DNA from: Multifurca ochricompacta
Taxonomy: Eukaryota; Basidiomycota; Agaricomycetes; Russulales; Russulaceae
Direction: 5' to 3'
Assembly (NCBI GenBank): GCA_022496185.1
Contig: WTXG01000276.1
Location: forward strand, 1-45,691
DNA: 45,691 nt
Within the stretch, counting starts at the first letter, position 1. Every line of letters starts with the position of its first letter. Below the pieces are notes generated by a model. It made no database searches. It had not been told where the DNA came from and saw only the letters and a program-made list of their open reading frames with translations. The translations under genes were made by a program, and so were the position numbers. Of the stretch, positions 851 to 36,482 are shown one piece after another.

Positions 851-3800
851 GTGGACTCAGGAGCCACAGACAATTTTATTCACCCACGACTACTTAGAAC
901 AATGGGTTTGGGACGGCTGGCACTTCCCCAGGAAAAGAACATTTGGAACATTGATGGAACGGCCAATCGTGCAGGGAAAATCACTCACTACACAGATCTA
1001 AGGGTCCAGGTTGGAGAAGCTACAAAAAACATTCGCTTCTTAGTCACGGATCTAGGAGACGAAGACCTTATTCTTGGATACCCATGGCTCGCTGCGTTCG
1101 AACCAAAGATCAATTGGGCGGATGCAACAATGGATAAGGAATCATACCCCACCATCATCACGTCGATAGGATATGATTACGCAGTCAGACATCCAACGAT
1201 AAAAGCTACCGGTACGAAGGAAGAAGACCCAGGCTACTGCTATGTCACCAAAGCATCAGAATTAGCTCAAAAGGCGATACAGGGGCAGGCAGAAAAAACC
1301 TACAGCGACATAGTACCGAGTACCTACCATCGGCATTGGAAGGTATTTTCCGAGGAAGAATCCCAGCGTTTTCCGCCCTCCAGACCATGGGACCATGCTA
1401 TAGACCTACTCCCGGATACACCGACTGCCATAGATTGTAAAATCTACCCACTGTCCCAGTCGGAGCAGGTGGCATTGACAGAATTCCTCGAAGAACATTT
1501 GGCAAAAGGTTACATTCGCCCCTCCAAGTCGCAGTACGCCTCGCCCTTCTTCTTCATCAAGAAGAAGGATGGCAAGCTGCGGCCGGTCCAGGATTATCAA
1601 CGACTCAATGCGTATACCGTGAAAAATGCCTACCCCCTGCCGCTCATCTCTGAACTTATCGACACTATGAGGGATAAATCCCTCTTCTCCAAGATGGACG
1701 TGCGGTGGGGCTACAACAATGTTAGAATCAGGGAAGGAGACCAGTGCAAAGCAGCATTCAAGACGAATCAAGGGTTGTTCGAACCCAACGTCATGTTCTT
1801 TGGTCTCACGAATTCGCCGGCAACATTCCAGTCTATGATGAACCACATTTTCCGCGATCTCATTCTCACTGGAGAAGTAGTGGTCTACATGGACGACATC
1901 CTGGTAGCTACCCCAGACAATTTAGACCACCATCGAGACCGAGTGCACCAGGTACTGGACATACTACGAGAACATGACCTGTATCTCAAACCAGCTAAAT
2001 GTTCCTTCGAACAACGGAGTGTTGAGTACCTAGGAGTCATCCTGGAAGGAGGACAAGTGCGTATGGACCCCATTAAAGTACAAGGAATTCGAGAGTGGCC
2101 AGTGCCAACTTGCGTCAAAGATGTCCGGTCATTCATTGGATTCTGTAACTTCTACCGACGATTCGTCAAGGGATTTTCAGGCATAGCGCGGCCACTGAAC
2201 GACCTACTGAAAAAGGATGTACTATGGTATTGGGGTGCAACACAGCAGCACGCATTCGAGCAGATTAGGGATCTTGTCGGGTCAGAACCAGTACTCATCC
2301 AGCCAGATCTGAGTCGCCCCTTCGAACTAGAGGTGGACGCCTCTCACTTTGCGAACGGGGCAGTGTTATATCAGAGAGATGCCACACAAATACTTCACCC
2401 GGTAGCATACTACTCTGAAACCTTCTCCTCAGCCGAACGAAACTATGACATCTGGGACAGAGAGCTTTTGGCCATAGTCAAAGCATTGCGGCATTGGCGA
2501 CCCTATCTGGCAGGAACCTCGCACAAGACCATCATCCACACTGACCATTCCAATCTATTGTATTGGAAAGAACCCCACAAAATCAGTCGGCGCGTGGCAC
2601 GCGAGGTCTTGGAGTTGGAGGAGTATAACTTCACATTGAAACATATTGCAGGAAGCCAGAACGCCAGAGCAGATGCCTTGTCACGAAGGCCGGATATGCA
2701 TACAGGAGAGGACGACAATAATGACATCACCGTCCTCCCAGAAGAGGTCTTCGCAAAATCGGCCGTGGTCAGTCTCCACGACATGGACCTTTGGGCACAA
2801 GTTTCCCAGAATATGAACCAAGACCTGTGCCTATCATGGGCTGACGCTCATAATTTAAAGAAGATTGACGGTCTTTGGTGGAAAGACGGGGATCGACTCG
2901 TTGTCACCGGTGGCGACAACATTAAGAGGGGGGTGATCCATTTTCATCACGACCTTCCCTCTGCTGGCCATCCAGGTATCGCCAACACCTACGCCCTGGC
3001 CAAAAGAGACTATTGGTGGCCCAACATGAAAAAGGACATTGAAAACTACGTACAAGGATGTGCCTCATGCCAAGCAAACAAGGTGAACACGCACCCGAAG
3101 ATCCCACCAATGTACCCCATCACTCCTATTGCATCGACCCCATTCCAGACCATCGCCATGGACTTCATTGTCAAGCTGCCCAAATCACAAGGCTTCGACA
3201 CCATCCTCACAATTACAGACCATGATTGCTCCAAAGCGGCTCTCTTTATCCCCTGTAACGAAACCATCACAGCCGAAGGAGTGGCAAAGCTCTACCTAAA
3301 CCATGTATACCGCCACTACGGGCTCCCCAAGAAGATTATCTCTGACAGGGATACTCGTTTCACATCGGCATTTGCAAAGGCCCTATGCAAAACATTGGAC
3401 ATCACACAGAATATCTCTACGGCATACCACCCCCAAACGGATGGACAGTCGGAACGGACAAACCAGTGGCTAGAGCAGTACCTCCGATTCTGGTGCAACA
3501 GCAGGCAAGATGACTGGGCAGAATGGCTATCGACCGCGGAATTCGCCCATAACTCGTGGCCCAATGGCACGACAAAAGCTACCCCTTTTTCCCTTATCAT
3601 GGGCTGGACCCCACGCACCACATGGACAGATAAGCCCGTCAACACCCCGTCAGTAACCGAAAGGATAAGCCAATGGGAGGAACTGCGACAATCGGCCAAT
3701 GAGAATCTGGTAAAGGCGCAACAACTTCTGATAGCACGGCCAAGCATGTTCACACCTTATCGGACCAATGACTGGGTATGGCTCGAGGGCAGGAACATTC

Positions 3801-4201
3801 ACACGTCACACCCCTCGGCCAAACTAGCGCCCCGACGTCACGGACCCTTCCAGATCACAAGGAAGCTGTTGGATGTGTCATACGAATTGAAACTGCCGCC
3901 GAAATGGAAGATCCACCCAGTCTTCCATGCCAAGCTTCTGACCCCTTACAAGGAAACCTCCATTCACGGAGAAAACTTCCCAAGACCCCCGCCTGACCTT
4001 ATCGATGGCGAAGAAGAGTGGGAAGTGGAACGTGTTCTAGACTCCAAGCGACAAGGCCGAGGGCGCAAATTGCACTACCTAATCAAGTGGAAGGGATTCC
4101 CAGACTCTGACAACTCGTGGGAATCAGCCGGAGATATCTTTGCCCCGGACCTTATCTCGGAGTTCCACATCCGACATCCAGAAGCACCCAAGAATGCTTA
4201 A
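851..4201 (+). CDS. gypsy G1 Pol polyprotein (PR-RT-RNase H-IN-chromodomain)
   Basis: Open frame of 1116 codons coding for the reverse transcription and integration machinery. The aspartic protease motif DSGA is at residues 2-5; the frame upstream is broken by a one-base loss just before it, so the natural N terminus (seen in G2 as ~75 more residues) is missing. The RT catalytic motif YMDD is at 346-349. RNase H follows (ELEVDASHF region), then the integrase HHCC zinc domain from ~699, and a DD35E core at D771, D832 and E868 with exactly 35 residues between the last two. The C terminus (~1054-1112) is a chromodomain (YLIKWKGF core), the hallmark of chromoviruses, which in known cases guides integration to marked chromatin. 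The stop lies 77 nt before the ATG of the next ORF. Confidence 0.95.
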   Translation: MDSGATDNFIHPRLLRTMGLGRLALPQEKNIWNIDGTANRAGKITHYTDLRVQVGEATKNIRFLVTDLGDEDLILGYPWLAAFEPKINWADATMDKESYPTIITSIGYDYAVRHPTIKATGTKEEDPGYCYVTKASELAQKAIQGQAEKTYSDIVPSTYHRHWKVFSEEESQRFPPSRPWDHAIDLLPDTPTAIDCKIYPLSQSEQVALTEFLEEHLAKGYIRPSKSQYASPFFFIKKKDGKLRPVQDYQRLNAYTVKNAYPLPLISELIDTMRDKSLFSKMDVRWGYNNVRIREGDQCKAAFKTNQGLFEPNVMFFGLTNSPATFQSMMNHIFRDLILTGEVVVYMDDILVATPDNLDHHRDRVHQVLDILREHDLYLKPAKCSFEQRSVEYLGVILEGGQVRMDPIKVQGIREWPVPTCVKDVRSFIGFCNFYRRFVKGFSGIARPLNDLLKKDVLWYWGATQQHAFEQIRDLVGSEPVLIQPDLSRPFELEVDASHFANGAVLYQRDATQILHPVAYYSETFSSAERNYDIWDRELLAIVKALRHWRPYLAGTSHKTIIHTDHSNLLYWKEPHKISRRVAREVLELEEYNFTLKHIAGSQNARADALSRRPDMHTGEDDNNDITVLPEEVFAKSAVVSLHDMDLWAQVSQNMNQDLCLSWADAHNLKKIDGLWWKDGDRLVVTGGDNIKRGVIHFHHDLPSAGHPGIANTYALAKRDYWWPNMKKDIENYVQGCASCQANKVNTHPKIPPMYPITPIASTPFQTIAMDFIVKLPKSQGFDTILTITDHDCSKAALFIPCNETITAEGVAKLYLNHVYRHYGLPKKIISDRDTRFTSAFAKALCKTLDITQNISTAYHPQTDGQSERTNQWLEQYLRFWCNSRQDDWAEWLSTAEFAHNSWPNGTTKATPFSLIMGWTPRTTWTDKPVNTPSVTERISQWEELRQSANENLVKAQQLLIARPSMFTPYRTNDWVWLEGRNIHTSHPSAKLAPRRHGPFQITRKLLDVSYELKLPPKWKIHPVFHAKLLTPYKETSIHGENFPRPPPDLIDGEEEWEVERVLDSKRQGRGRKLHYLIKWKGFPDSDNSWESAGDIFAPDLISEFHIRHPEAPKNA

Positions 4202-4278
4202 AAGGACTGCCCCAAACCCCCCACCGATTCCCCCAGTACATGCTCCCACAGCAACGTCCTACAACTATCGAATCCATC

Positions 4279-5478
4279 ATGTCTTTCATCGCTGCCAACG
4301 CCGCCATTGACGCTTTCGCCGCTACCACAGTAGTTGTCGAGAACTTCCCTTCCGCGCACCCTTCCACACGTCCCTCCTCACCCATTGACTACGAGGCCGC
4401 CGAAGCCCGGGTCAAGAACCAGTCTCCCAACCCTAACGACGACTTTAAACACTGTGAAGAACCACATCCAAATGACCTGATAGGTATGGAGTCGGATGAC
4501 GAGGTCCCCGAATTTCCCTTCTTCATTAACAACCCGAACTCCTCCACGTACTACCCGTTGGAGATCACCATGGGTGACGGGACAGTTGCGATCGCCAAAT
4601 ACATTTTCTACACCAACAGAGGGATGGATGTGGCCGGATGCATGAAGAAGGACGGCCCTGTTTATGGAGCTCCGGTATATCTGGAGGAAAGGTACACTGG
4701 TCGTCTGCATCACACCATGACCGACGAACAGCTGGGGCACCTGGCTGCTGAAGATTCGCGGGCTTTCGCCATCGATGAGGTGTTGAGTGACATGCAACTT
4801 CCGTGTCTCAAAGCCGAGGTAATGAGACTGCGGAAGAACCTAACCTTGCGCAAAACACTCAATCAACAATATAAAGAGCACGCGAAGATGATGGCCCGGC
4901 TGACCAATGGGATGTTCCAGGTCGAGCAGGAATTGGTGGAGATTCGAAAGAGGCTGGAAAAGGGGGATGCTTATCAGACAATTGCAGAAAGGTACGCCGA
5001 CACATATGCCCGGCCCCTACCCCCACGATCATTGGGGGCTGCTCCCGTGTTGCTGCCGAATCGGTTTGAGATGCCGCGCATGCATGAGAACCCTCGAGGC
5101 GAGACATGCTGGCGTTGTGATAGTAAGTATCACATCAGCTGGAACTGCCCCCTCAATCGCAAATGGTGTCGGCATTGTCGCAGCAACCTGCACTGGAGCA
5201 GGTTCTGTATCTTCCATTGACTGGGAGTCGCCCCAACGATCAGCAACCCGTCCGCATGGTGTGGCAAGTGCCTGCGTCATAATGCAGGGCATCGAGAACT
5301 GGACTGCCCGGTCCATGATCTGTGCCGCATGTGTGGTCGACGCGGCCCCTATGGGTTCCTCCGTACTCACCAATGCCCCCAAGACGAGGACAAGGAGAAT
5401 TATACAATGGATGATCGTAATGTAGCTGACGACTACTTGGAGTTGGTACAAGATGATGACGGTACGAGTCGTTTCTAG
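4279..5478 (+). CDS. gypsy G1 ORF3: post-pol zinc-knuckle protein, one internal TGA
   Basis: I do not recognise this as a standard gypsy gene. ATG at 4279 opens 313 codons to a TGA at 5218-5220; the same frame then continues, conserved with G2, to TAG at 5476-5478 (399 codons in all), so the TGA is probably a nonsense mutation. Visible parts: Ser/Pro/acidic N terminus; a helical, charged segment at ~176-238 that could form a coiled coil; then two perfect CCHC knuckles (C277-C280-H285-C290 and C297-C300-H305-C310). Beyond the TGA come two looser Cys/His clusters (~328-343 and ~349-366). The frame is also open upstream to 4117, overlapping the pol end, but the pol-ORF3 frame relation differs in G2, so a separate start is more likely than frameshifting. 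The role is unknown; nucleic-acid binding is an inference from the knuckles. Confidence 0.8.
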
Positions 5479-6096: not shown

Positions 6097-7695
6097 TCTT
6101 CCAGACTTGGGCACATGGAGTTGCTATATGCCGCAGGTGTCTCTTACAGAGACCCCCTGACTTTTCAGGAGGCAATGCAGTCTGACAATGCCAGTGAATG
6201 GCTTGAGGCATGTAAATATGAAATTGATGCCTTAGATAAACTTGATGTGTGGCACCTTGAGGATCTTCCAAAAGGAAGAAAGGCTGTCAAATCTAAATGG
6301 GTTTTTAAGCTGAAACCAGATGGACGGTTTCGTGCTAGGCTCGTGGCAAAAGGGTTCACCCAAGTAGAAGGAGTGGACTTCGACGAAACTTTCTCTCCAG
6401 TCGCCAGATTTGAATCTCTTAGATTATTACTAGCACTAGCTATGCTAGAGGATTGGGAAATCCACCAGATGGATGTCAAATCGGCATTCCTACATGGCGA
6501 TCTGGATGAAGAGATATATATGGAGCAACCAGTTGGTTTCGTCATTGCTGGTCAAGAGTCCAAAGTTTGTAGGCTACAAAAAGCATTATATGGCCTCAAA
6601 CAAGCTTCCCGAGCATGGAACCTACAATTCCATGCAGTTCTTAATGAACTGGGCTTTACTCAGACGTACTCTGATGCAGGAGTATATGTGTTTCATCATA
6701 AGGAGGGGGATGATTCACTCTATGTCATTCTCTATGTAGATGACATTACTATACTTGGATCTTCCAATGATAAGATAACATGGCTGAAGTCATCACTATC
6801 TAATTGATATGAGATGACTGACTTGGGAGAAATCCAGTCGTACCTTGGAGTTAACATCACCAGGGATCGTCCTAACAAGACACTGGAAATTGATCAAGCA
6901 GCCTACGTTTTATCTATTATTGAGAAGTTTGGGATGAGGGATTCCAACCGAGTATATACTCCTCTTCCCTCTGGCGCTGATGTACATCTGGTCAAGTTTG
7001 AAGGCCAGGCATCTGCTTCTGAAATAAAGAAGTACCAACAGCTGATGGGGTCACTGCTATGGGTGCAGATTGGAAGCAGACCCGATATCAGTTTTGCTGT
7101 GGCATGCCTTAGCCAATATGCTTCCAACCCCTCCCAAGATCATATGCGACTTGCAAAATATGTCTTAAAGTATCTTAATAGTACAAAAGACTGCAAGTTG
7201 CGGTATTCTGGAGGGAATGGGGAGAGTGGCCTTCATGGCTTTGCAGATTCCTCATGGGGAGATCAAGAGGACTGCTGCTCTACCTCGGGCTACATGTTTT
7301 TCTTAGCAAATGGTGCCATTTCATGGTGTTCCAGAAAGCAGAAAACAGTAGCACAGTCCACCACTGAGGCTGAATATATGAGCCTCTCTGAGGCTGCTAA
7401 TCAGGCAGTGTGGTATAGGACTTTTATGGAGGAATTAGGGTATGAGGTATCCTCCCCTATACTACTCCATTGTGACAATAAGGGTGCCGTGGATTTGGCA
7501 TTAAACCCAGTCACAGGAAGGCGGTCAAAGCATATTCCAATCAAGTACCATGCCATTAGGGGGTACGTTGAATTGCACATAATTGAGTTAGTGCGAACCC
7601 CCACAGGTGAGATGCTGGCAGATGGCTTCACTAAGTCTCTACCAAAAGCGTCGTTTGAAACCATGGTTAATGGACTTGGACTTATGCTGAAATGA
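6097..7695 (+). pseudogene. copia A pol: RT and RNase H, one in-frame TGA
   Basis: C-terminal Pol of a copia element, reading in one frame from 6097 to a TGA at 7693-7695. RT motifs present: VKSKWVFKLKPDG, QMDVKSAFLHGDL and the catalytic YVDD (LYVDDITILG, near 6740). RNase H motifs: GFADSSWGD, QSTTEAEYMSL and HCDNKGA. A single TGA at 6805-6807 splits the frame just before YEMTDLGE in the RT connection region; the identical codon is TGA in copia B (22219-22221). In copia 3 the matching codon is CAC. Everything else in this stretch is open. It is either a shared inactivating CGA-to-TGA change or, less likely, a tolerated stop. Confidence 0.88.
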
Positions 7696-7981: not shown

Positions 7982-8480
7982 TGTTGAACACAGAAGATGT
8001 TCGGTGATGCTTCAGGCATCAGGTGATTAGATTAGCTGCTTTGTAGATTAGATTAGATTCCGGAGTTTTGGACTTTTACCATATCTTTATTACTTTCTTT
8101 CTCACATTCCACAGTAGCTGACTGATGCACTATGTAACATGTGATTTCTGTAGTGGCCAATGGCCTTTCTCCCTCATGTTTATTGTTTGGACTTTGTCCG
8201 GCACTTGTGGACTTATTCCCAGTGCACAGACCATCCCTTGGATAGTATATAAGGGTGTCTGTTTTGTCTCTTCCACTTCAGAGTTTCTTCAACCTCTGAA
8301 GTGTAAGTTCTACTATACTTTCTATCATACCTTTGACTAACTGTCTCTTGTAGATAACTTGTCTTTCTAGGTCAGTAGAATAGTAATTAAGAGTTTCTTC
8401 AACCTCTGAAGTATAACTTGTCTTTCTAGCCTAACCCGCTAACCTTACAGTCAGTATGCTGCGCACATGCCTGTTTCACA
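7982..8480 (+). repeat. 3' LTR of copia A (LTR a, 499 bp)
   Basis: TGTTGAACACAG...CCTGTTTCACA, preceded by a purine tract. It contains a TATA box, an intron-like segment and an intronless second copy of the leader, described in the next entry. It is homologous to the LTRs starting at 15129, 16199, 16805, 20648, 23307, 24780 and 35981. Confidence 0.95.
8246..8429 (+). promoter_or_regulatory. LTR a leader: TATA, exon1-intron-exon2, then intronless copy
   Basis: TATATAA at 8246-8252. Exon1 is 8280-8302 (starts AGAG, 34 nt after the first T of the TATA box). An intron-like segment is 8303-8353 (51 nt, GTAAGT...TTGTAG, with CTAAC as a candidate branch site). Exon2 is 8354-8370. After a 19-nt spacer, 8390-8429 repeats exon1+exon2 exactly with the intron missing: 40 of 40 bases match. 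The spacer plus second copy (8371-8429) is itself bounded by GT and AG. Splicing is inferred, not shown. Confidence 0.85.
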
Positions 8481-11847: not shown

Positions 11848-12460
11848 TATTAGATGTATATCCTAAGTATCTAATTAATTGTGAATGCATTTTTGATCTT
11901 ATCACTTGTATTATCTATGTTGAACCAAACAAAGATACTGGTACAGACATTCCAGGATAGCAGTCTGATCAAAAATGCATTCACAATTAATTAGATACTT
12001 AGGATATACATCTAAGTGATAAGATTAAAAATGCATTCACAATTAATTAGATACCTAGGATATACATCTAAGTGATAAGATCAAAAATGCATTCACAATT
12101 AATTAGATACTTAGGATATACATCTAAGATAATACAGGTGATAAAAAACATGTTCACAATTAATTAGATACTTAGGACATACATCTAAGTGATAAGATCG
12201 AAAATGTGTTCATAATTAATTAGATACTTAGGATATACATCTAAGTGATAAGATCAAAAATGTGTTCACAATTAATTAAATACCTAGGACATACATCTAA
12301 GTGATAAGATCGAAGACGCATTCATAATTAATTAGATACTTAGGATATACATCTAAGATAATACAAGTGATAAAAAATGCATTCACAATTAATTGGATGC
12401 TTAGGATATACACCTAAGTGATAAGATCAAAAACATGTTCACAATTAATTAGACACAAGT
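11848..12460 (+). repeat. 56-bp AT-rich tandem array with one inverted unit
   Basis: Nine forward units built on ACAATTAATTAGATACTTAG...ACATCTAAGTGATAAGATC run from ~11968 to ~12460. The first unit (about 11850-11911) is inverted and separated by ~56 bp of other sequence. Units differ by a few substitutions, mainly C/T and G/A. A related sequence (TTAGATGTGTATCCTAAGTA) lies at 9568-9587. Confidence 0.85.
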
Positions 12461-12515
12461 GATAAAATCAACTTTGCATAACCCTATATATAATATATTG
12501 TGTGATTTTACTAGT

Positions 12516-12597
12516 GAGGCTGGGTGGCTCAATGGTTAGAGCACCAGACCAAGTGTGTACCTGGAGGTCTTGGGTTCAATCACAGATGCTGCCATTT
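12516..12597 (+). repeat. tRNA-like (SINE head-like) sequence, right copy
   Basis: A-box-like TGGCTCAATGG (12525-12535), D-stem GCTC/GAGC, and B-box-like GGTTCAATCAC (12573-12583). It is preceded by TATATAATATATTGTGTG, as is the left copy at 9433-9517 in reverse. The acceptor stem does not pair, so it is not a functional tRNA gene as far as I can tell. Confidence 0.5.
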
Positions 12598-12689
12598 ATT
12601 TTCTGGCATGCTCTTTGATAAATGTCATCCTCATTATAATATGATTATTACTACACTACTATACCCCTATTACATAATTTTCATATTGT

Positions 12690-12868
12690 AGGACTGGTTC
12701 AGACCAGTTGCAGACCGGCAACCAGACTGAAAAGGACCATTTTTCAGTCTTTAGGCAGTCTGGTCCAGTTATCTGGACATAAGGTACAACTGGCAACCAG
12801 TTGCAGTTGCTGGTTGTGTCCCATTATGGTCAAAAAACCAGACTGGACCAGACCTTTAAACACTAGTT
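12690..12868 (-). repeat. AACCAG/GGTTGC-rich inverted-repeat end, right
   Basis: Mirror partner of 9136-9345: it ends in CCAGACCTTTAAACACTA (12850-12867) and is full of CTGGTTGC/AACCAG words. Confidence 0.4.
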
Positions 12869-15128: not shown

Positions 15129-15628
15129 TGTTGAACACAGGAGATGTTCAGTGATGCTTCAGGCATCAGGTGATTAGATTAGCTACTTTGTAGATTAGAT
15201 TAGATACCGGAGTTTCAGACTATTTACACTATCTTTATTACTTTCCTTCTCACATTCCGCAGTAGCTGACTGATGCACCATGTAACATGTGATTCCTGTA
15301 GTGGCCAATGGCCTTTCTCCCTCTATTTGTTGTTTGGACTTTGTCCGGCACTTGTGGACTTATTCCCAGTGCACAGACCATCCCTTGGAAGTGTATATAA
15401 GGGTGTCTGTTTTGTCTCTTACACTTCAGAGTTTCTTCTACCTCTGAAGTGTAAGTCGTCCTCTCTACTATCTCACTACCTCTAGACTAACTCTGTATAT
15501 AGAACTTGTCTTTATAGGTGTGTAGTATAGTAATATAGAGTTTCTTCTACCTCTGAAGTAACTTGTCTTTATAGCCTAACCCGCTAACTTTCCACAGTCA
15601 GTATGCTGCGCCACATGCCTGTTCCACA
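15129..15628 (+). repeat. Solo copia LTR b (500 bp), target duplication CTCCC
   Basis: TGTTGAACACAG...GTTCCACA flanked by CTCCC at 15124-15128 and 15629-15633. Leader structure: TATATAA 15394-15400; exon1 15428-15450; intron-like 15451-15502 (GTAAGT...TATATAG); exon2 15503-15517; intronless second copy 15537-15574, which matches exon1+exon2 at all 38 positions. Confidence 0.93.
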
Positions 15629-16198: not shown

Positions 16199-16544
16199 TG
16201 TTGACATGGGATGTGTCTGGAGATGCTTCAGGCATCTGAGTTTTGGTTTAGCTGTCTGATTAGGTTAGATTAGATCTCAGAGTATCGGACTTTTTATGTT
16301 ATCCTTATTACATTTCTTTCACATGTTACTCAGCAGCTTACTGATCCACTTAGTAATCATAGTTTACATGTGATTCTCCACTGGCCAATGGCCTTTATCC
16401 TTCTCTGTTTGTTGTCTGGCACTTGTGGACTTATTCCCAGTGTGCACAGACCATTTCCCCTGGCCCCCATGGGTATATAAGGGTGTCTGTTTCATCCTCT
16501 ACACTTCAGAGTTTCATTCACCTCTGAAGTTTCTACTTTACTTA
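16199..16544 (+). repeat. Truncated copia LTR c, splice donor lost
   Basis: It starts TGTTGACATGG and matches the other LTRs through TATATAA (16474-16480) and exon1 (16508-16530). Directly after exon1 the five bases GTAAG expected at the donor are absent. Homology ends at ~16544, where another repeat starts. Confidence 0.8.
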
Positions 16545-16804: not shown

Positions 16805-17301
16805 TGTTGACACGCTATGTGTCTTGAGGTGCTTCAGGCATCTAGGTTAGGGTCTAAGCTGTGCAAGATTAGATTAGATATTGATTCGGAGTTTCGGACT
16901 TTTTACCATATCATTATTACTTTCTTTCTCGTGATGCGCAGCAGCTGACTGATGTACCTTAGTAATCCTGTATAGCATGTGATATCTTACTGGCCAATGG
17001 CCTTTGTCCCTCAGTAGATATTCTAGCGCATTCCATTGCGCACAGACCATCCCTTGAGTAGTATATAAGGGTGTCTGTTTCATCTCCTACACTTCAGAGT
17101 TTTCTTCACCTCTGAAGTGTAAGTCCCAGTCTCTCTACTTACTACCTTACCTATAACTAACCGTCTCTTGTAGATAACTTGTTTCTAGGTGTGTAGTATA
17201 GTAATACAGAGTTTTCTTCACCTCTGAAGTATAACTTGTTTCTAGCCTTACACGCTAACTTCAAACAGTCAGTATCACTGCACACACATGCCTGTTCATC
17301 A
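16805..17301 (+). repeat. 5' LTR of copia B (LTR d, 497 bp)
   Basis: TGTTGACACGC...CTGTTCATCA. Leader structure: TATATAA 17062-17068; exon1 17096-17118; intron-like 17119-17173 (GTAAGT...TTGTAG, with CTAAC inside); exon2 17174-17188; intronless copy 17208-17245, an exact 38-base match. Confidence 0.95.
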
Positions 17302-18237: not shown

Positions 18238-21200
18238 ATGGCAAACATTGTCTTCCCCTCAACCTTCAAATTCGATAAGCTCGATGGCTCCAACTGGCCA
18301 CAGTGGTCAGTGTCTTTCACCACCCTACTTAGGATTAATGGCATGAGAAGGCACATCACACATGATGGACCAGAATATGCCAATCCCCCGGTCCAGAAGG
18401 ATGATGAGAAGGAGGCGGATTACCAGGCAAGATTTGCCGCCTGGAGCGAACCCATAATCCAAGAATGGAGTAGGGTTGAAGAAGTATTGATGGGTTTACT
18501 GGTGCTGGTCGTTACCAGCGAAGTTTATTCTCAGGTTGCCTCTGATAGGAAGTATCTGTCAGTCTGCTCAAAGTATGAGCAGCTGGAGTCCTTGTATGGC
18601 ACTGTGGGTAGCATGGCCACCTACAATTTGTGGTGCTCAGTTTCATCCTTCTGTTTGGAGGAAGGCAAACCATTTAGGCCCCAATTGCAGCGTGTGCTAG
18701 ATGCTAGGAATACCCTGAAGGAGAATGGGATGGAGGTCTCAGACCTTCAGATGAGCTTTATTTTGCTCCAGTCCCTTCCCCCATCATACAGTGCCATTGC
18801 TGGCTCAATCCTGGCTTCAGGTCCTCCTGAATGCCTTTCCCCTCAGGACCTCATTCAGAGGTTCCTAAATGAGGAAAGCCGACTTGCTGGCCCCGCAGGA
18901 AGTGGTGTTGGGGCTGCCCTTAACAAGGCAGCCCACGTCAACAAAAACGAAAATAAAAAAGTTCAAATTATCACGCCACAACCTGCAGGTGCATCATCGT
19001 CCAATGATGTCACCTGCTTCTACTGCCAGAAGCTGGGCCACAAGGCAAATGAATGTCAGCAGAGGAAACAGGATCGGCAGAATGCCACTGCTGGAAAAAA
19101 GGGCAACCAGAGGAAGGTGCAAGGCGCCAGTATACCATCATCTTCCCACCAAGTAGCTACAATAGTTAATGGTAGTGGAAGAATACAGGAGGTGCATGAG
19201 ACACCTCACATTAAACTTTATACTTTGCATACGACTGAGGAAATCTTTCAAGATGATGGATTTGCCTGGATGATGGATAGCGGTGCCACCACCCACTTCA
19301 CACCCTTTGAGTCAGATTTCTATGAATATCTGCCTCATTCGGGACATACTGTCACAGTGGCAGATGGAACTGTGGTCCCAATAGAAGGAGTAGGAAGCGT
19401 TCACATAAGGACCAATAAAAATTATATATTGGAACTTAACAACGTTTTCTACATGCCATCTGCAGGAAATCGCATCTTATCAACAAGTCATATCACAAAT
19501 AGAGGTGGTATGGTCTTATTTGATCAGTACAATGTCACAATAGAGTATAAAGGACAAAGAATAGCGGAAGGAATCAAGGCTGGGGATCTCTACTGGATCC
19601 AAGGGTCCATAGTGGATAAACCAACCGCTGCCCTGAATACTGCATCAACCAGCCTTGATACCTGGCATCTCAGAATGGGTCATATGTCTAAACAAGCCCT
19701 AAAGAGATATGCTCCTGAGGCCGTAAAAGGCCTCAGTCTAAAAAATAGCCAAGAGGAAGTAAAGCCTTGTCATGGCTGTGAAATGGGAAAATCCCATTGC
19801 CTTCCTTTCCCTCCCTCTCATAAGCGGGCTTCAGCACCTTTGGAGGTCATTCATAGTGATCTAGTTGGTCCACTCCAATGTACCTCAATACAAGGGAATT
19901 TATATTTCGCCACTTTCATAGATGACTTTAGTTGTAGTGCTATTGTTGTTCCAATGAAAGCAAAACATTACTTCAAATTGGTCTTTGCGAGTGTTAAGGC
20001 ATTCTTAGAAAATAAAACTAGTAACAAAATAAAGACCTTACACACAGACTGTGGTGGCGAATACATTAATAATGAACTGAAGTCCTTGCTAAGTGAGGCT
20101 GGCATAGAGCATAAACTTACAATGCCATATTCTCCACAACAGAATGGAAGAGCTGAAAGGTTCAATAGAACTATAATGGAAAAAGCCACTAGCATGCTTC
20201 ATCATGCTGGGCTTTCTCTTGGCTTTTGGGAGTGTGCTGTTTCTACAGCATGTCACATATATAACAGAACTCCCATCCATTCCAATAAGTGGAGGACACT
20301 GCTGGAGCTTCTGGTTGGGGACATACCAGATGTCTCTTATTTTAAAGTCTTCGGTTGTGAAGCATATTATCATGTTCTGGAAAACAAGCAGCAAAAATTG
20401 GACCCTAAAGCCAAAAAAGCTGTCTTTGTTGGGTATGAGCCAAATAGCAAAGGCTACACCCTATGGGATAGACATACCCGGTCCTTTGTTTCGTCCAGAG
20501 ATGTGACATTTAATGAAGAATCCTTCCCATCCCGCTCTGTAATGGACAACAGAGATAAAGCAAAGGAACAAGTTGTTCCAGTAGAAGGAGGGTCTGTCCA
20601 ACCCTCACCAGCAATAGCCACAGTTCCTCAGGATCCTGAGTATAAGGTGTTGACACAGGACGTGTCTGGAGATGCTTCAGGCATCTAAGGTTCGCTTCAG
20701 CTGTAGATTAGATTAGATTAGATTTCGGAGTATCGGACTTTTTATGTTATCTTTATTACATTTCTTTCTCACCTTACTCAGCTGATTAGTGATGGACTTA
20801 GTAATGCGCAGTAAGCATGTGATATCTCTTTGGCCAATGGCCTTTATCCCTCACTGTTTATTATCCGGCACTTGTGGACTTATTCCCAGTGTGCACAGAC
20901 CATTTCCCCTGGCCCCTATGGGTATATAAGGGTGTCTGTTTCGTCCCTTTCACTTCAGAGTTCTTCTAACCTCTGAAGTGTAAGTCCCATTTACTTTACT
21001 CTCTACTTCCTTTAGACTAACGCTCTATGTAGTACTTGTCTTTTCTAGGTCAGTAGTGTAGTAATATAGAGTTCTTCTAACCTCTGAAGTTACTTGTCTT
21101 TTCTAGCCTCACCGCTACTAACCACAGTCAGTATAACCAGCAGCATGATTGTTTGACATAAGGATACCAAGGTTGAGGAACAGGAGGTAGTGGAGCCTCC

Positions 21201-23306: not shown

Positions 23307-23803
23307 TGTTGACACACTATGTGTCTTGAGGTGCTTCAGGCATCTAGGTTAGGGTCTAAGCTGTGCAAGATTAGATTAGATATTGATTCGGAGTTTCGGA
23401 CTTTTTACCATATCATTATTACTTTCTTTCTCGTGATGCGCAGCAGCTGACTGATGTACCTTAGTAATCCTGTATAGCATGTGATATCTTACTGGCCAAT
23501 GGCCTTTGTCCCTCAGTAGATATTCTAGCGCATTCCATTGCGCACAGACCATCCCTTGAGTAGTATATAAGGGTGTCTGTTTCATCTCCTACACTTCAGA
23601 GTTTTCTTCACCTCTGAAGTGTAAGTCCCAGTCTCTCTACTTACTACCTTACCTATAACTAACCGTCTCTTGTAGATAACTTGTTTCTAGGTGTGTAGTA
23701 TAGTAATACAGAGTTTTCTTCACCTCTGAAGTATAACTTGTTTCTAGCCTTACATGCTAACTTCAAACAGTCAGTATCACTGCACGCACATGCCTGTTCA
23801 TCA
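23307..23803 (+). repeat. 3' LTR of copia B (LTR f, 497 bp)
   Basis: Near-identical to 16805-17301, with the same leader structure: TATATAA 23564-23570; exon1 23598-23620; intron-like 23621-23675; exon2 23676-23690; intronless copy 23710-23747. Confidence 0.95.
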
Positions 23804-24779: not shown

Positions 24780-25280
24780 TGTTGAACACAGAGATGTTCG
24801 GTGATGCTTCAGGCATTAGGTGATTAGATTAGCTACTTTATAGATTAGATTAGATACCGGAGTTTCAGACTATTTACATTATCATTATTACTTTCTTTCT
24901 CACATTCCGCAGTAGCTGACTGATGCACCATGTAACATGTGATTCCTGTATTGGCCAATGGCCTTTCTCCCTCTGTTTATTGTTTGGACTTTGTCCGGCA
25001 CTTGTGGACTTATTCCCAGTGCACAGACCATCCCTTGGAATTGTATATAAGGGTGTCTGTTTCGTCTCTTACACTTCAGAGTTTCTTCTACCTCTGAAGT
25101 GTAAGTCGTCCTCTCTACTATCATCACTACCTTAAGACTAACTCTGTATATAGAACTTGTCTTTATCTAGGTGTGTAGTATAGTATAATAGAGTTTCTTC
25201 TACCTCTGAAGTAACTTGTCTTTATCTAGCCTTACACGCTAACCACACAGTCAGTATGCTGCGCACATGCCTGTTTCACA
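24780..25280 (+). repeat. Solo copia LTR g (501 bp) in the palindrome, duplication ACAAG
   Basis: TGTTGAACACAG...GTTTCACA with ACAAG at 24775-24779 and 25281-25285. Leader structure: TATATAA 25044-25050; exon1 25078-25100; intron-like 25101-25153; exon2 25154-25170; intronless copy 25190-25229, an exact 40-base match. Confidence 0.95.
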
Positions 25281-26959: not shown

Positions 26960-27269
26960 TGTAGCGAGCTATAAATGCGTAGCTCAGTCTTTGGAATAGA
27001 AAGACTGTATGATTTGTTAATACCTATAAATGCGTAGCTACACAATGAATCAGTAAAGTAATAATGTAGCTGTAACACAGAGAGTACTGACCTCAGTCTT
27101 TGGAATAGAAAGACTGAGGTTTCTAACTACGCTACTGAGTCTTTATGATAAAGGAAAATTGCACGACCTGTGTGCTCTGAATATTGTGTTGCGTTGATAC
27201 GGTAGTGATCGAACTCGGGCCGCCATCTCCGGTATCAATTGATTGCGTGCTATGGCTGCACTTCCAACA
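26960..27269 (-). repeat. 3' LTR of copia D (310 bp)
   Basis: Reverse strand TGTTGGAAGTGC...GCTACA. It carries the same intron/intronless-copy arrangement as the A/B LTRs, although the sequence is unrelated. Confidence 0.95.
26969..27150 (-). promoter_or_regulatory. copia D LTR leader: TATA-like, exon1-intron-exon2, then intronless copy
   Basis: On the reverse strand: TATCATAAA (27150-27142); 34 nt after its first T, exon1 27116-27092; intron-like 27091-27038 (54 nt, GTCAGT...GTGTAG); exon2 27037-27024; 16-nt spacer; then exon1+exon2 joined at 27007-26969, matching all 39 positions. Exon1 is itself a hairpin (CAGTCTTT/AAAGACTG). The spacer plus second copy is bounded by GT and AG. Confidence 0.82.
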
Positions 27270-27276
27270 CGCCCCC

Positions 27277-30200
27277 TTAGCCTGCACGCTGAACTCCCAT
27301 CGCGTCTACGAACTTCTCGTGTTTCTCGCGGACAAGGCCCTTTGTCAACACGTCGGCAAGTTGCTCTTCCGTCGGCACATATTTCAATTCAATGACTTGG
27401 TTTTCGCACATGTGCCTCAAGAAGTGATGCCTTATCTCGATGTGTTTGGTGCGATCATGGAACTCGGGGTTTCGGGCAACGGATATTGCAGATTGATTGT
27501 CCATGCAGAGGGTTGTTGGTGAGTCGCTTTTCTGGTGGATCTCAGCTAGTAACCGACGTAACCAGACAGCTTCTTTTGCAGCATGAGCTCCAGCAATATA
27601 CTCGGCTTCAGTGCTCGATAGTGCAATGGATGGTTGCTTCTTAGAGCTCCAGCTAATGGCTCCTCCAGCAAGTAGGAAAACAAAACCCGATGTGGACTTC
27701 CGATCATTCACGTCACTGGCCCAGTCAGCGTTGACATAGCCGTACAGCTCAGTTCCCTTAGGTGCGTCAGGTTTGAAGACAAGCTTCGCGCCGCTCGTAG
27801 CTCTAAGGTAACGGAAAGCGCGGTTTAGAGCTTGCTGATGCTCTTCCCCAGGGTTCGCAGCATGCCTCCCGAGCACTGCAATAGTGTATGCTAGGTCAGG
27901 ATGGGTGCCGAGCATAGGGTACATCAAGGCGCCGATTGCTTGCTGGTACCTTTTGACGTCAACTGTTGGTGAGTCGAGTTTCCTTAGATGCTCGTTTGCG
28001 AGGGTGGGGGTGCTAATGGGTCGCACGTCGGATTTGCCAAAACGTGTCAAGATTTCTTCGATATATTTTTCTTGGGAGAGCGCCATCCATCCGGCCTCGC
28101 AGTTGCGCGTGATGTGCATCCCAAGAATCCAGGTGATTTCGCCCAGGTCAGTCATCTCATAGGCATTTCCGAGTGCCTCTTTGTCTTCATTGATCTCCTT
28201 TAGGTCCTTCGACACCATGGTGATGTCGTCAACATAGAGAGCAATGATAGAGGACTTTGCGTTTCTGTGGTGGACGAAAACTGCATGGTCGGCTTCGGTG
28301 CATTGGTATCCTATGTTTTCAAGCTTAGCTCTGATGTCTTGATACCAGACGCGGCCACCTTGCTTTGTTCCGTAGACCACCTTGATAAGTCGGAGTACCA
28401 TCCCCTTGGGAACGTCAAAACCGGGAGGTGGCTCCATGTAAATTTCTTCCTTTAGTTCGCCATTCAGGTATGCTGACTTCACATCCATTTGGTGAACTTC
28501 CAGGTTGTATTCAGTCACTAGTGCGAGGATTGCGCGAAGCGATGCAAACTTTGCCACTGGGGCGAATGTTTCATCATAGTCGACTCCCTCGACTTGAGTG
28601 AATCCCTGTGCGACGATACGAGCCTTGTGCCTCAAGACCTCTCCAGTTGGCCCACGCTTCGTGCGGAACACCCATTTGCTGCCAACCACCTTGCGCCCTG
28701 TGGGACGTTCGACGACTTCGTACACTCCCATGGCCTCGAACGATCGCATCTCTTCCTGGCAAGCAGCTTCCCATTCGCCGGCGTCGAGTCGCGCCATAGC
28801 TTCTTTGAAGGTGCGTGGGTCACTTGCTAACTCAGGTTGTGCGATGTTGGCTTGCTCTGTAGGGTTCCCTTTTGTTTTGTAGGAACTAACAGAGTAACGA
28901 GGGTCATCGTCGCAGATAGGGGGGCGCGTGGTTCGCTTTGGTCGGGTGGTGATAGGCGTTGGTGTCGATGTCGGTGCGGATGCGGGGGTCTCTGTGAGTG
29001 CACTTTCTACTTCGCTGTCACTACTTTGCTGAAGTTGGCTAGGGTTTTGCACTGGTGTATTAGGTAGCGGCTCTATAATGTTTTCGTTTTTATCGCCCTC
29101 ACTGGGCTCTGTATCGTCGAATTCGATGACGACTCTTTCACTGGCTGGCCCCCCTTCATTGAATACGACGTCGCGCGACTCGTAGAAACGGCCCGTTGGG
29201 CAATGCACTAGACGATAAGCTTTGCGACTCTGAGCATACCCCAAGAATGTGCACAAGATGGACCGCGCACCGAGCTTGGTGCGATACTTCGCTGGGATGT
29301 GCACAAACGCTCTGCAGCCGAAAACACGCAAACGGGAAACGTCAGGTTTATTGCCACTCCAAGCTTCATCAGGGGTGGAGTCCTCCAGGGCGCGGGTGGG
29401 TGTGACATTGTGCAGATAAGCTGTGTACTCTAAAGCGTCGTACCAGTAAGTGTCAGGCAAATCCGCATCAATGAGCATCATCCGGACTTTATCGAGAAGC
29501 GTCCGGTTCATGCGCTCTGCGACTCCATTATGCTGAGGTGTGTCCGGCGTCGTCATTTCGTGTTTGATGCCTTTGTCTTGTAGGAACCTCTGGGCCATGG
29601 TGGCGATGTATTCGCCCCCTCCATCCGTGCGCAGCACTCTTACTCGCTGACCTGTTTCGACTTCTGCGTGAGCTACGAAGCGTTGTAGATGGTGAGTCAC
29701 TTCGGATTTTTCGCGCAGGCCGGTGACAAAAACTCGTCGGGACTTATCATCCACCCAGGTGACGAAATATTCAAATCCTTGGTGAGATCGTCGCGGCATC
29801 TTGCCACAGACGTCCGAGAAGATTCGCCCTAGGACTTGGGTTGATCTGGTCCCAGTGTCCCTCTGGATCTCAGTACGTGTTTGCTTCCCTTTGAGGCACG
29901 GTTCGCAGAGGACAGGTGGACTGGTTTTTGAGGTAATGTCCATCCCCTTAACCATCCCCTTTCGCATCATTTGGAGAACAGCATCGACATTTAGATGGCC
30001 GAGGCGGCGGTGCCAGGTGTGTAGGTCAGCTTTCGCCACTGAGTGTCTTGCGACCAAAGCTACGTCATTATCCTCGGCTCCTTCAACTGGGAAAACATCG
30101 ACCTGAGTGATCTGGACTCTCTCCGGAGCTACGGTGCGGGCATCCATCGTGTAGAGGTTGCCTTCGAGGTGGCCCTCACAGGTAAGCACTCCAGTCTGAC

Positions 30201-30345
30201 TGTAGATCTGACAGGAGTTCTTGGTAAAATGCACATCGGCTCCGCGACTGGCAAGTTGGGCAACAGATAACAAGTTTCCGTGCAGTTCTGGGACATATAG
30301 GACATCTTGGAGAATGGCATCACTCCACTTTCCATTTGCCGTCAT
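27277..30345 (-). CDS. copia D Pol (protease end, IN, RT, RNase H)
   Basis: Open frame of 1022 codons in the same frame as the upstream gag-protease ORF, separated only by TGA at 30348-30346. Residues from the front: end of the protease domain (LQDVLYVPELHGNLLS), pre-integrase WHRRLGH...CEPCLKGK, and a DD35E integrase core at D178, D241 and E277 with exactly 35 residues between the last two. RT has QMDVKSAYLNGEL and YVDD at 704-707. RNase H contains YGYVNADWA, where residue 872 is Asn; relatives usually have Asp there (YVDADW), a likely catalytic position, so RNase H may be damaged. The TAA stop overlaps the purine tract, 7 nt from the LTR. Confidence 0.95.
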   Translation of the reverse strand: MTANGKWSDAILQDVLYVPELHGNLLSVAQLASRGADVHFTKNSCQIYSQTGVLTCEGHLEGNLYTMDARTVAPERVQITQVDVFPVEGAEDNDVALVARHSVAKADLHTWHRRLGHLNVDAVLQMMRKGMVKGMDITSKTSPPVLCEPCLKGKQTRTEIQRDTGTRSTQVLGRIFSDVCGKMPRRSHQGFEYFVTWVDDKSRRVFVTGLREKSEVTHHLQRFVAHAEVETGQRVRVLRTDGGGEYIATMAQRFLQDKGIKHEMTTPDTPQHNGVAERMNRTLLDKVRMMLIDADLPDTYWYDALEYTAYLHNVTPTRALEDSTPDEAWSGNKPDVSRLRVFGCRAFVHIPAKYRTKLGARSILCTFLGYAQSRKAYRLVHCPTGRFYESRDVVFNEGGPASERVVIEFDDTEPSEGDKNENIIEPLPNTPVQNPSQLQQSSDSEVESALTETPASAPTSTPTPITTRPKRTTRPPICDDDPRYSVSSYKTKGNPTEQANIAQPELASDPRTFKEAMARLDAGEWEAACQEEMRSFEAMGVYEVVERPTGRKVVGSKWVFRTKRGPTGEVLRHKARIVAQGFTQVEGVDYDETFAPVAKFASLRAILALVTEYNLEVHQMDVKSAYLNGELKEEIYMEPPPGFDVPKGMVLRLIKVVYGTKQGGRVWYQDIRAKLENIGYQCTEADHAVFVHHRNAKSSIIALYVDDITMVSKDLKEINEDKEALGNAYEMTDLGEITWILGMHITRNCEAGWMALSQEKYIEEILTRFGKSDVRPISTPTLANEHLRKLDSPTVDVKRYQQAIGALMYPMLGTHPDLAYTIAVLGRHAANPGEEHQQALNRAFRYLRATSGAKLVFKPDAPKGTELYGYVNADWASDVNDRKSTSGFVFLLAGGAISWSSKKQPSIALSSTEAEYIAGAHAAKEAVWLRRLLAEIHQKSDSPTTLCMDNQSAISVARNPEFHDRTKHIEIRHHFLRHMCENQVIELKYVPTEEQLADVLTKGLVREKHEKFVDAMGVQRAG

Positions 30346-31473
30346 TCAGACATGGATGCGACCGATCCCGGTGCCGAGGATACTGCTGTTGTCGCCTAAG
30401 ACAATTTTTACTGGATTGGTGAGTGTTTTGAAATTGAAAAACCAGTTCCGATGGGAGCACATGGTACGTGATGCTCCGGAGTCGATGATCCATCGCTGAT
30501 TGAGATCGATGCATGATGATAGGGCTTGTAGCACTTTGAACAGGAGTATGGGGCCGTCCCCTTGCGGTGCACTGTCGCTGGCAGGTGCCTGGCCTCCAGT
30601 AAATGCGACTTTGGCTGTAGCGTTTGGGGGTTTCTGCGTATCATCTCCGGTGCTGCTCGCTTTGGCCTCATTTTCCTTCTCCAGTTTCCAACACTCTTCC
30701 ACCACATGGCCACGCTTCTTACAGTGAGTGCAGCGTTTCTTTGTCTTCTCCTCTTCTGACTTTTCTTTTCCCTTTTTAGCTGTATTTGCTGAGCGCGCGA
30801 AGTAAGCGGTCACTCCAAGGCCCGATTCTTGAACGCGGCATTGTTCATCGAGAATTATTTGTGACTTGACATGCTCAACGGTAAGGGAAGAGGGGTTGGC
30901 TGTAGAAAGGATGGTTTTTAGAGTGGATAGGGAGGTTGGGAGTGAGGAGATGATTGCGAAAGCGACGAGCTTGTCATCCAGTGGCAAGCCGATGTTGGAT
31001 ATGGTATGGGCAGCCCTGACAATGGCATTTATCTGGGGCTCAAGGGATTCTGTGTCCGAGAGGGTGGAATGGAATACGTCATTGATAAGGTAAACGATCT
31101 TCTGTTCTCCTTTGCCTTCATAACGGACTGATAACTTCTCCCAGCATTCCTTGGCCGTCTTCGCGTACAGGACTGTACTCAGGGGTTCGTCCTTGAGCGT
31201 CAACGATATTTGTGCTTGTGCTTCGCTATCTTTGAGTGCCCATTCCTCCTGTTCTTCAGGAGGTGCTGTGGCATCTGGCTGAGGCTCTGATCCATCAACC
31301 ACAGACCACAATCTTTGCAGTTTCAGGACCATCTGAACTCTGTACTTCCAGAATGTGAAGTTTCCACCATCGTCTTCCAAGTGAGGTATGTCATATTGAC
31401 GTGCTCCTTTTGAGTTTGCCGCAGATGCTGCTGCTGCTACTTTGGGTGCCGCTGCGCTGGTCGGGGAACTCAT
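30346..31473 (-). CDS. copia D Gag and start of protease, ends at in-frame TGA
   Basis: ATG at 31473 opens 375 codons. The Gag core (UBN2-type) has FWKYRVQMVLKLQ, AKECWEKLSVRYEG and IISSLPTSLSTLKTIL segments. A CCHC knuckle CTHCKKRGHVVEEC lies near residue 250. The protease motif DSGA starts at D331. The frame stops at TGA 30348-30346 inside the protease domain and resumes immediately as MTANGKWSDAIL, so this is one polyprotein with a nonsense codon, probably CGA to TGA. A deliberate gag/pol stop with readthrough is possible, but its place inside protease makes that unlikely. The start lies ~50 nt after the primer-binding site. Confidence 0.93.
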   Translation of the reverse strand: MSSPTSAAAPKVAAAASAANSKGARQYDIPHLEDDGGNFTFWKYRVQMVLKLQRLWSVVDGSEPQPDATAPPEEQEEWALKDSEAQAQISLTLKDEPLSTVLYAKTAKECWEKLSVRYEGKGEQKIVYLINDVFHSTLSDTESLEPQINAIVRAAHTISNIGLPLDDKLVAFAIISSLPTSLSTLKTILSTANPSSLTVEHVKSQIILDEQCRVQESGLGVTAYFARSANTAKKGKEKSEEEKTKKRCTHCKKRGHVVEECWKLEKENEAKASSTGDDTQKPPNATAKVAFTGGQAPASDSAPQGDGPILLFKVLQALSSCIDLNQRWIIDSGASRTMCSHRNWFFNFKTLTNPVKIVLGDNSSILGTGIGRIHV

Positions 31474-31543: not shown

Positions 31544-31853
31544 TGTAGCGAGCTATAAATGCATAGCTCAGTCTTTGGAATAGAAAGACTGTATGATTTG
31601 TTAATACTTATAAATGCGTAGCTACACAATGAATCAGTAAAGTAATAATGTAGCTGTAACACAGAGAGTACTGACCTCAGTCTTTGGAATAGAAAGACTG
31701 AGGTTTCTAACTACGCTACTGAGTCTTTATGATAAAGGAAAATTGCACGACCCGCGTGCTCTGAATATTGCGTTGCGTTGATACGGTAGTGATCGAACTC
31801 GGGCCGCCATCTCCAGTATCAATTGATTGCGTGCTATGGCTGCACTTCCAACA
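31544..31853 (-). repeat. 5' LTR of copia D (310 bp)
   Basis: Same structure as 26960-27269. Exon1 31700-31676, intron-like 31675-31622, exon2 31621-31608, intronless copy 31591-31553. Exon2 and its second copy differ by two C/T-type changes here. Confidence 0.95.
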
Positions 31854-35980: not shown

Positions 35981-36482
35981 TGTTGAACACAGAAGATGTT
36001 TGGTGATGCTTCAGGCATCAGGTGATTAGATTAGCTACTTGTAGATTAGATTAGATACCGGAGTCTCGGACTTTTTACACTATCATTATTACTTTCTTTC
36101 TCACATTCCGCAGTAGCTGACTGATACACCACATAACATGTGATTTCTGTATTGGCCAATGGCCTTATTCCCTCTTGTTTATTGTTTGGACTTTGTCTGG
36201 CACTTGTGGACTTATTCCCAGTGCACAGACCATCCCTTGAAGAGTATATAAGGGTGTCTGTTTTGTCTCTTACACTTCAGAGTTCCTTCTATCTCTGAAG
36301 TGTAAGTCCTATCTACTCTACTCTCTACTTTCCTTAGACTAACGCTTTATATAGTACTTGTCGTTTCTAGGTCAGTAGTGTAGTAATATAGAGTTCCTTC
36401 TATCTCTGAAGTTACTTGTTGTTTCTAGCTTAACCCGCTAACAACCTACAGTCAGTATGCTGTGCCTCATGCCTGTTTCACA
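35981..36482 (+). repeat. Solo copia LTR h (502 bp), no target duplication
   Basis: TGTTGAACACAG...GTTTCACA. Leader structure: TATATAA 36245-36251; exon1 36279-36301; intron-like 36302-36354; exon2 36355-36370; intronless copy 36390-36428, 38 of 39 matching (one C/T). The flanks CTTTC and ATCCA do not match, so it may derive from recombination between two elements. Confidence 0.92.

Follow-up and report, generated by a model that had tools for sequence, protein, structure and literature searches.

Long terminal repeat (LTR) elements are thought to require an unspliced genome for reverse transcription, and an ordinary copia LTR contains a single R between U3 and U5. Unlike such LTRs, a copia LTR (LTR a) within the 45,691-nt stretch of Multifurca ochricompacta DNA analysed here (contig WTXG01000276.1; hereafter the window) has R twice, once with a predicted intron and once without it, which raises the question of how the spliced form of a leader comes to stand in DNA beside the unspliced one and what keeps it there. 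As listed in Table 1, the two forms of the leader in LTR a corresponded as the original prediction had claimed, exactly to the base, with 23/23 matches in exon 1 and 17/17 in exon 2. The gap that separates them was indeed a clean GT-AG gap: it cannot be slid along the alignment, and GT-AG is its sole placement. Further, exon 1 was confirmed to begin 34 nt past the first T of TATATAA, and the border of copy 2 together with the spacing from the TATA box points to an RNA start at position 8280. LTR a is likely the 3' LTR of a truncated copia copy; a piece of RVT_2 lies upstream of it (6115-6807).

Table 1. Coordinates of the LTR features in the window (ex1 and ex2, exons 1 and 2; TSD, target site duplication).
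Feature	Positions	Strand	Remarks
LTR a (TGTTGAAC...TTTCACA)	7982..8480	+	ends from TG..CA and relatives
TATATAA box, LTR a	8246..8252	+
Exon 1, copy 1, LTR a	8280..8302	+
Predicted intron 1, LTR a	8303..8353	+	GTAAGT...CTAAC...TTGTAG, 51 nt
Exon 2, copy 1, LTR a	8354..8370	+
Spacer, LTR a (GTCAGT...TTA)	8371..8389	+	19 nt; begins with second donor-like GT; final base is the hypervariable position
Copy 2, LTR a: exon 1 fused to exon 2, intron-free	8390..8429	+	40/40 match
Predicted intron 2, LTR a: spacer plus copy 2 (GTCAGT...CTTTCTAG)	8371..8429	+	weak branch point
CCTAACCCGCTAACCTTACAG region, LTR a: acceptor-like site past copy 2	8430..8459	+	motif in 102/109
Predicted hairpin, LTR a	8270..8307	+	5' arm 8270-8283 (mostly U3), 3' arm 8294-8307 over 5' splice site; fold and accessibility
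Unit in solo LTR 15129-15628	15428..15574	+	ex1 15428-15450, intron 15451-15502, ex2 15503-15517, copy 2 15537-15574; TSD ctccc
Unit in 5' LTR 16805-17301	17096..17245	+	intron 17119-17173, copy 2 17208-17245
Unit in solo LTR 20648-21158	20957..21106	+	intron 20980-21032, copy 2 21068-21106; TSD taagg
Unit in 3' LTR 23307-23803	23598..23747	+	intron 23621-23675, copy 2 23710-23747
Unit in solo LTR 24780-25280	25078..25229	+	intron 25101-25153, copy 2 25190-25229; TSD acaag
Unit in LTR 35981-36482	36279..36428	+	intron 36302-36354, copy 2 36390-36428; one exon-2 mismatch between copies
Family 2, 5' LTR 31853-31544	31553..31699	-	ex1 31699-31676, intron 31675-31622, ex2 31621-31608, copy 2 31590-31553; two exon-2 mismatches
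Family 2, 3' LTR 27269-26960	26969..27115	-	ex1 27115-27092, intron 27091-27038, ex2 27037-27024, copy 2 27006-26969
Family 2 gag (30346-31473) and pol (27277-30345)	27277..31473	-	Retrotran_gag_2, rve, RVT_2

The same form was found, again as claimed, in six further LTRs of the window (TATATAA at 15394, 17062, 20923, 23564, 25044 and 36245), which with LTR a belong to what we call family 1; another family-1 LTR in the window, at 16474, was without it, exon 1 there continuing into other sequence. An exact scan for the form, with the tandem array at 11.96-12.46 kb masked, gave 6 and 1 matches on the two strands, and 0 were obtained when the window was reversed or complemented and in 50 random Markov-1 windows. 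The unmasked minus strand yielded additional spurious matches, all within the 56-bp tandem array, and TATATAAGTCCACTG-type sites elsewhere in the window showed no leader duplication in the scan. The paired LTRs at 16805-17301 and 23307-23803, which have TG...CA ends, differed at 3 of 497 positions and are flanked by taacc and taact; three solo LTRs of the window have 5-bp TSDs (Table 1), and no TSD was found at LTR a or at the LTR with TATATAA at 36245. The window also encodes gag and integrase domains (18202-20688) and RVT_2 (21406-22221).

The anatomy was not confined to family 1. Family 2, an element on the opposite strand whose two LTRs are 98% alike, encodes PF14223 in 30346-31473 and PF13976, PF00665, PF25597 and then PF07727 in 27277-30345, and its LTRs run from exon 1 through GTCAGT...GTGTAG to exon 2, then through a spacer whose first letters are GT to the fused exons 1 and 2, after which the LTR ends; the form was present in 22/22 family-2 LTRs read. 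Among 12 stretches downstream of other RVT_2 genes, seven had the form, two of them belonging to family 1 and the other five to families 3 and 4; the five stretches without it comprised one that truncated the LTR, three in which no LTR was seen, and L150. With the five that had the form counted in, a larger sampling of families 3 and 4 gave it in 25/26. In gag, integrase upstream of RVT_2, paired TG...CA LTRs and 5-bp TSD these elements are like Ty1/copia (Pseudoviridae), as they are in a putative priming site directly after the 5' LTRs (GGTTATGGGCCCTG, putatively complementary to the anticodon region of initiator tRNA-Met). When one LTR region per family was compared by blastn, family 1 and family 2 matched neither each other nor families 3 and 4 at E 0.01, the latter two being 73% alike across 226 nt; by this comparison three LTR groups of apparently unrelated sequence have the same plan. 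We note that mismatches between the copies in families 2 and 3 (L161-L163, L180, L183, L184 and L190) are for the most part changes of CG to CA/TG, the pattern that deamination of methylated C would leave once an element has inserted.

A protein search returned 68 gag relatives; two protein queries and one alignment against viral contigs found no relative, and prokaryote genome contigs contained one distant copia, on a 7.5-kb contig and without the architecture. Every locus with the architecture comes from one genome, searched over 53.8 Mb in 605 contigs. Genome-wide, the U3 anchor TATATAAGGGTGTCTGTTT (at most 1 mismatch) occurred at 1666 sites, the exact intron-bearing form (hairpin plus GTAAGT) at 1428, and exon 1 fused to exon 2 right behind U3 (collapsed LTRs) at 37. 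For family 1 we sampled 125 distinct LTR starts, 112 of which passed the script, a fraction that is biased as a frequency because the sample was partly selected, L138-L148 having been chosen from the intron-bearing list and L001-L008 by likeness to LTR a, and the collapsed loci L039-L068 excluded. Read by eye, the 13 sample rows without a script match comprised three collapsed LTRs (L072, L119 and L137), eight interrupted or cut LTRs, and two in which the form was present with a 1-base difference in exon 1 (L084) or a shortened copy 2 (L091). The two copies were compared in 109/112 LTRs, those with clean exon-2 ends.

Intron 1 began with GTAAGT in 111/112 LTRs, was 49-57 nt long, and had a branch point matching CTRAY in 109/109, at 11-14 nt before its 3' end, exact CTAAC occurring in 100 LTRs versus 8 in shuffles. 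It thus has the GT-AG ends, the branch point and the typical length of a spliceosomal intron, and the leader is predicted to be spliced in the RNA. Its short length and CTRAY branch point would fit a fungal intron. A second boundary, missing from the original prediction, lies at the end of exon 2: in 101/112 LTRs the homology of copy 2 ended exactly at a GT of copy 1 (GTCAGT, GTGTGT or a like donor), and the remaining 11 had an earlier mismatch (8), a different last base of exon 2 (2) or a cut copy 2 (1), the GT after exon 2 of copy 1 being kept in all 11. In families 2-4 the letters after exon 2 are as a rule GTATTA, GTAAAC and GTAAAG, respectively; because GTA also follows copy 2 in families 3 and 4, making the match 3 nt longer than exon 2, the GT-AG rule was used there to set the border. 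Spacer and copy 2 together form a 56-62-nt GT...AG segment with its AG at the end of copy 2. As the homology breaks off at a GT donor, removal of two introns from the leader would yield copy 2 followed by U5. The chief soft spot of this two-intron reading is the weak branch point of predicted intron 2, for which CTRAY was found in 31/109 LTRs and YTNAY in 66/109.

Just past copy 2 lies CTAAC...CAG/TCAGTA (slash, possible splice junction), a strong-looking 3' splice site present in 102/109 LTRs. Splicing from the second donor to this site in the template was considered and rejected: a fusion of exon 2 to TCAGTA was present in 0/109 LTRs and in 0 of the fetched loci. Although the site is the better acceptor, its use would delete sequence that is kept in the fetched loci, so that it is either unused in the template or misread.

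The two copies of the leader did not diverge as independent sequences would. They were identical in 100/109 family-1 LTRs and differed in 9/109, with 11 differences in total compared with a mean of 633 (minimum 537) in 1000 random re-pairings; among the 54 distinct leaders there were 7 differences compared with 336 by random pairing. The mean difference of a copy was 0.13 from its own partner and 2.07 from its nearest relative by intron 1, and exon 2 was 24% different between LTRs. Consistent with this, close LTR pairs, which overlap so that the changes counted are not independent events, had 24 leader changes that appear in each of the two copies; of the 3 unmirrored changes, 1 affected copy 1 and 2 affected copy 2. 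Agreement within LTRs and difference between LTRs thus indicate that copy 2 has been renewed repeatedly, and not inherited from one old event. One ancient insertion of cDNA from a spliced leader (or a tandem duplication, with an intron acquired afterwards by the first copy), followed by plain inheritance, would be the simplest history and accounts for the clean GT-AG difference in any single LTR. However, it predicts independent divergence, against which stand 11 differences where 633 would be expected and mirroring of changes by 24 to 3, and an appeal to recent clones of a few masters is contradicted by the 54 distinct leaders; we regard this history as hardly credible.

Renewal would have to run from copy 1 to copy 2, because copy 2 could not supply the intron. 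An RNA start at copy 2 was ruled out, as it could not keep the copies alike. Chromosomal gene conversion between the two direct repeats is a conceivable agent of renewal, short direct repeats ~110 nt apart being able to convert, and the 37 collapsed LTRs could be deletions between the repeats. Conversion should, however, at times move the intron into copy 2, and an intron donor in copy 2 was seen at 1 of the 1109 sites matching the copy 2 pattern genome-wide; it should also at times strip the intron from copy 1 while leaving copy 2, and a pattern search of the fetched loci found no such case. Conversion further leaves unexplained both the stop of homology at the GT donor and the hypervariable base at the copy 2 border (see below), and it appears very unlikely as the cause.

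The extent of homogenisation bears on a further alternative, namely that intron 1 alone is spliced and the reverse transcriptase slips between the 40-nt leader repeats, losing the spacer and one repeat. Reverse transcriptases are well known to delete sequence between direct repeats, and the poor branch point of predicted intron 2 is easily accommodated by such slippage. Slippage would nevertheless retain the 3' part of the old exon 2 in copy 2, whereas identity of the copies extended to a point 4 nt short of the exon-2 end in 107/109 LTRs (60 in shuffles), and the border of copy 2 was the GT donor in the families read. LTRs with three copies would also be expected, and none was present among the 112, the one row with three exon-1 units consisting of two abutting LTR pieces. 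On this evidence we consider slippage quite unlikely, and retain the reading in which two introns are removed from the leader.

The border of copy 2 carried a second mark. The base before copy 2, which is the last base of the spacer, differed in 16/57 close family-1 pairs (0.28 per site, compared with 0.037 in the intron and 0.025 in the rest of the spacer) and the base before copy 1 in 0/57, so that the former changes ~6-11 times faster than intron or spacer sites at three cut-offs. The base before copy 2 was T in 79 LTRs, C in 22, A in 5 and G in 3, whereas the base before copy 1 was C in 109/109, and genome-wide a base other than C preceded exon 1 at 1 intron-bearing site versus 1428 with C. 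In families 2-4 (18, 10 and 12 distinct LTRs), for which the comparison concerns the base mix and not rates of change, T/C or T/C/G stood before copy 2 and C alone before copy 1. We infer that the variable base is the landing place of the 3' end of the strong-stop cDNA; it may derive from an untemplated added base or from an RNA start that varies by one base. Some of the contrast between the two borders could reflect selection to keep the C at the start site in front of copy 1, and the excess over intron sites would remain. The collapsed LTRs, which had C and no other base before exon 1 (37/37), count against frequent addition of a variable extra base to the cDNA.

A variable base at the join, and a copy 2 equal to the spliced leader, would likewise be predicted if the same cycle proceeded by end-to-end transfer, with the RNA ending at the spacer and the strong-stop cDNA joined there without landing on copy 2. 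Such a transfer would be free of homology although a homologous copy 2 is available, and the spacers have a steady length of 17-21 nt, the types listed being without a terminal A-tract; we judge it unlikely. Landing of the cDNA on copy 2 is the form of transfer that we favour.

A cycle of this kind needs one LTR to be spliced and the other not, and a difference between the two was found in the predicted RNA fold. In all four families the tail arm of U3 (CACTTCAG or CCTCAGTC...) is predicted to pair with exon 1 and to reach over the start of the donor. In five test stretches from the four families, the predicted hairpin energy was -15 to -20 kcal/mol with the U3 arm and -0.8 to -4.9 kcal/mol when the fold began at the RNA start; predicted donor accessibility was lower with U3 in 83/99 family-1 LTRs and in 15/18, 9/10 and 12/12 LTRs of families 2-4, respectively, the drop in family 1 being moderate (0.32 to 0.18) and absent in 16/99. 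The predicted hairpin spans the presumed RNA start and needs transcribed U3 to cover the donor; it could in this way prevent splicing of the 3' LTR, and it probably decides which LTR is spliced.

We consider it likely, on comparison of the sequences, that the intron-free copy is remade in each round of replication by spliced-leader cDNA landing on it at first-strand transfer. Transcription from the 5' LTR would begin at exon 1, leaving the donor free at the 5' end of the RNA, and both intron 1 and intron 2 (the spacer plus the old copy 2) would be removed to give exon 1-exon 2-U5. RNA of the 3' LTR would contain U3, whose tail is predicted to pair with exon 1 and would mask the donor, so that this LTR would stay unspliced and copy 2 would be kept. 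Copy 2 would then act as the 3' R: the spliced strong-stop cDNA would pair with it, and synthesis would continue across the spacer, exon 2, intron 1, exon 1 and U3. The new LTR would combine an intron-bearing copy 1 from the parent 3' LTR with a fresh copy 2 and U5 from the parent 5' LTR. In such a cycle copy 2 would guard the intron against loss and supply a usable R despite the spliced 5' end of the RNA. A tempting addition is that the T/A-rich spacer might contain a poly(A) signal that would function at the 3' end of the RNA and be lost by splicing from its 5' end. With rather less assurance, we also hold it probable that terminal redundancy is achieved through host splicing, such that the 5' R arises only after two introns are out, the 3' R is the stored intron-free copy, a U3-gated hairpin separates the two, and the spliced 5' end is re-recorded each round at nucleotide precision. 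The original proposal, that cDNA of a spliced RNA 5' end was built into the LTR, thus stands as regards the clean loss of the intron from copy 2, with GT-AG ends and a branch point; it is amended in that the event appears to recur in each cycle and not to be a single one, and it had missed the second intron boundary and the hairpin.

Two pairs of loci bear on the parental origin of the copies. L099 and L100 are on one strand with ~6 kb between them, as are L126 and L127, and each pair has a common mismatch between copy 1 and copy 2; L100 is followed by the priming site and L099 by flank, and L126/L127 are arranged likewise. By position, each pair is probably the two LTRs of one element. A mismatch common to both LTRs of a pair was probably present at integration, as in a mosaic of parental LTRs, in which copy 1 would come from the parent 3' LTR and copy 2 from the parent 5' LTR. 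The collapsed LTRs read had U3-exon 1-exon 2-U5 without spacer or second copy in 30/30 cases (e.g. L054, L066 and L067). Among them, L043/L044 and L066/L067 lie on the same strand ~13 kb apart, with the priming site after one and flank after the other; as each pair looks like the LTRs of a single element, collapse can precede integration, and both landing of cDNA on copy 1 and repeat deletion fit such pairs.

Parts of this plan have counterparts in known systems. In foamy viruses, U1 bound at the 5' donor suppresses polyadenylation in the 5' LTR and the packaged genome is unspliced, whereas the cDNA transferred here appears to be spliced. A foamy virus study (PMC3694450) places the major splice donor in R and finds that 13 nt of U3 before the RNA start, as present in the 3' LTR, change the fold, leaving the donor with fewer free bases than it has at the RNA 5' end. 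The LTRs described here are similar in having a donor inside R and, by prediction, U3-dependent masking of that donor. They differ in that the foamy virus LTR has the donor alone, whereas here the LTR contains a whole predicted intron together with the spliced product of that intron-bearing leader, kept as a second copy, and in that masking in foamy virus serves poly(A) choice (PMC3694450) whereas here it would set which LTR keeps the intron. BARE and Drosophila copia have partly spliced RNA, with internal introns and with the spliced RNA used for translation, and the BARE paper states that retrotransposons must avoid reverse-transcribing spliced RNA (PMC3735527). Partial splicing is common to those elements and the present ones; here, the spliced 5' end would be the very part that is copied. 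The Ty1 RNA branch (lariat) model, as described in PMC1266399, invokes a 2'-5' bond and splicing-type chemistry at first strand transfer and, unlike the LTRs here, involves neither an intron nor a stored spliced copy.

The portion of the open-access literature on LTR introns and spliced copies that was covered, with subscription journals mostly outside its scope, describes no such LTR; the word intron is absent from the main text of a survey of fungal copia elements (PMC5445492) and occurs once in a Laccaria survey (PMC3411680). Our comparisons indicate that the spliced 5' end would be what gets copied, and recurrently so, in unrelated LTR families. If this is true, splicing is part of strand transfer and host splicing is part of the copying cycle, and an intron persists in the LTR although the RNA is spliced and reverse transcribed. 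The DNA would then record at base resolution both the RNA start and, in the variable base, the strand-transfer junction; the strong-stop end, the extra base and the contributions of the parental LTRs, usually matters for biochemistry, would be readable from DNA.

The window also contains other elements. A Ty3/gypsy pol with a chromodomain lies at 851-5220. An array of the 56-bp unit (11967-12453) is followed by a tRNA-like body at 12487-12700 (A/B-box-like by eye, GGGTGGCTCAATGGTTAGAGCACC...GGTTCAATC), together a SINE-like unit, and a similar combination of array and tRNA-like body is present in L154. Lastly, at L005 an LTR end abuts another LTR piece that starts exactly at the second donor (GGTCAGTAG...), a junction that is perhaps a nested insertion at that donor.
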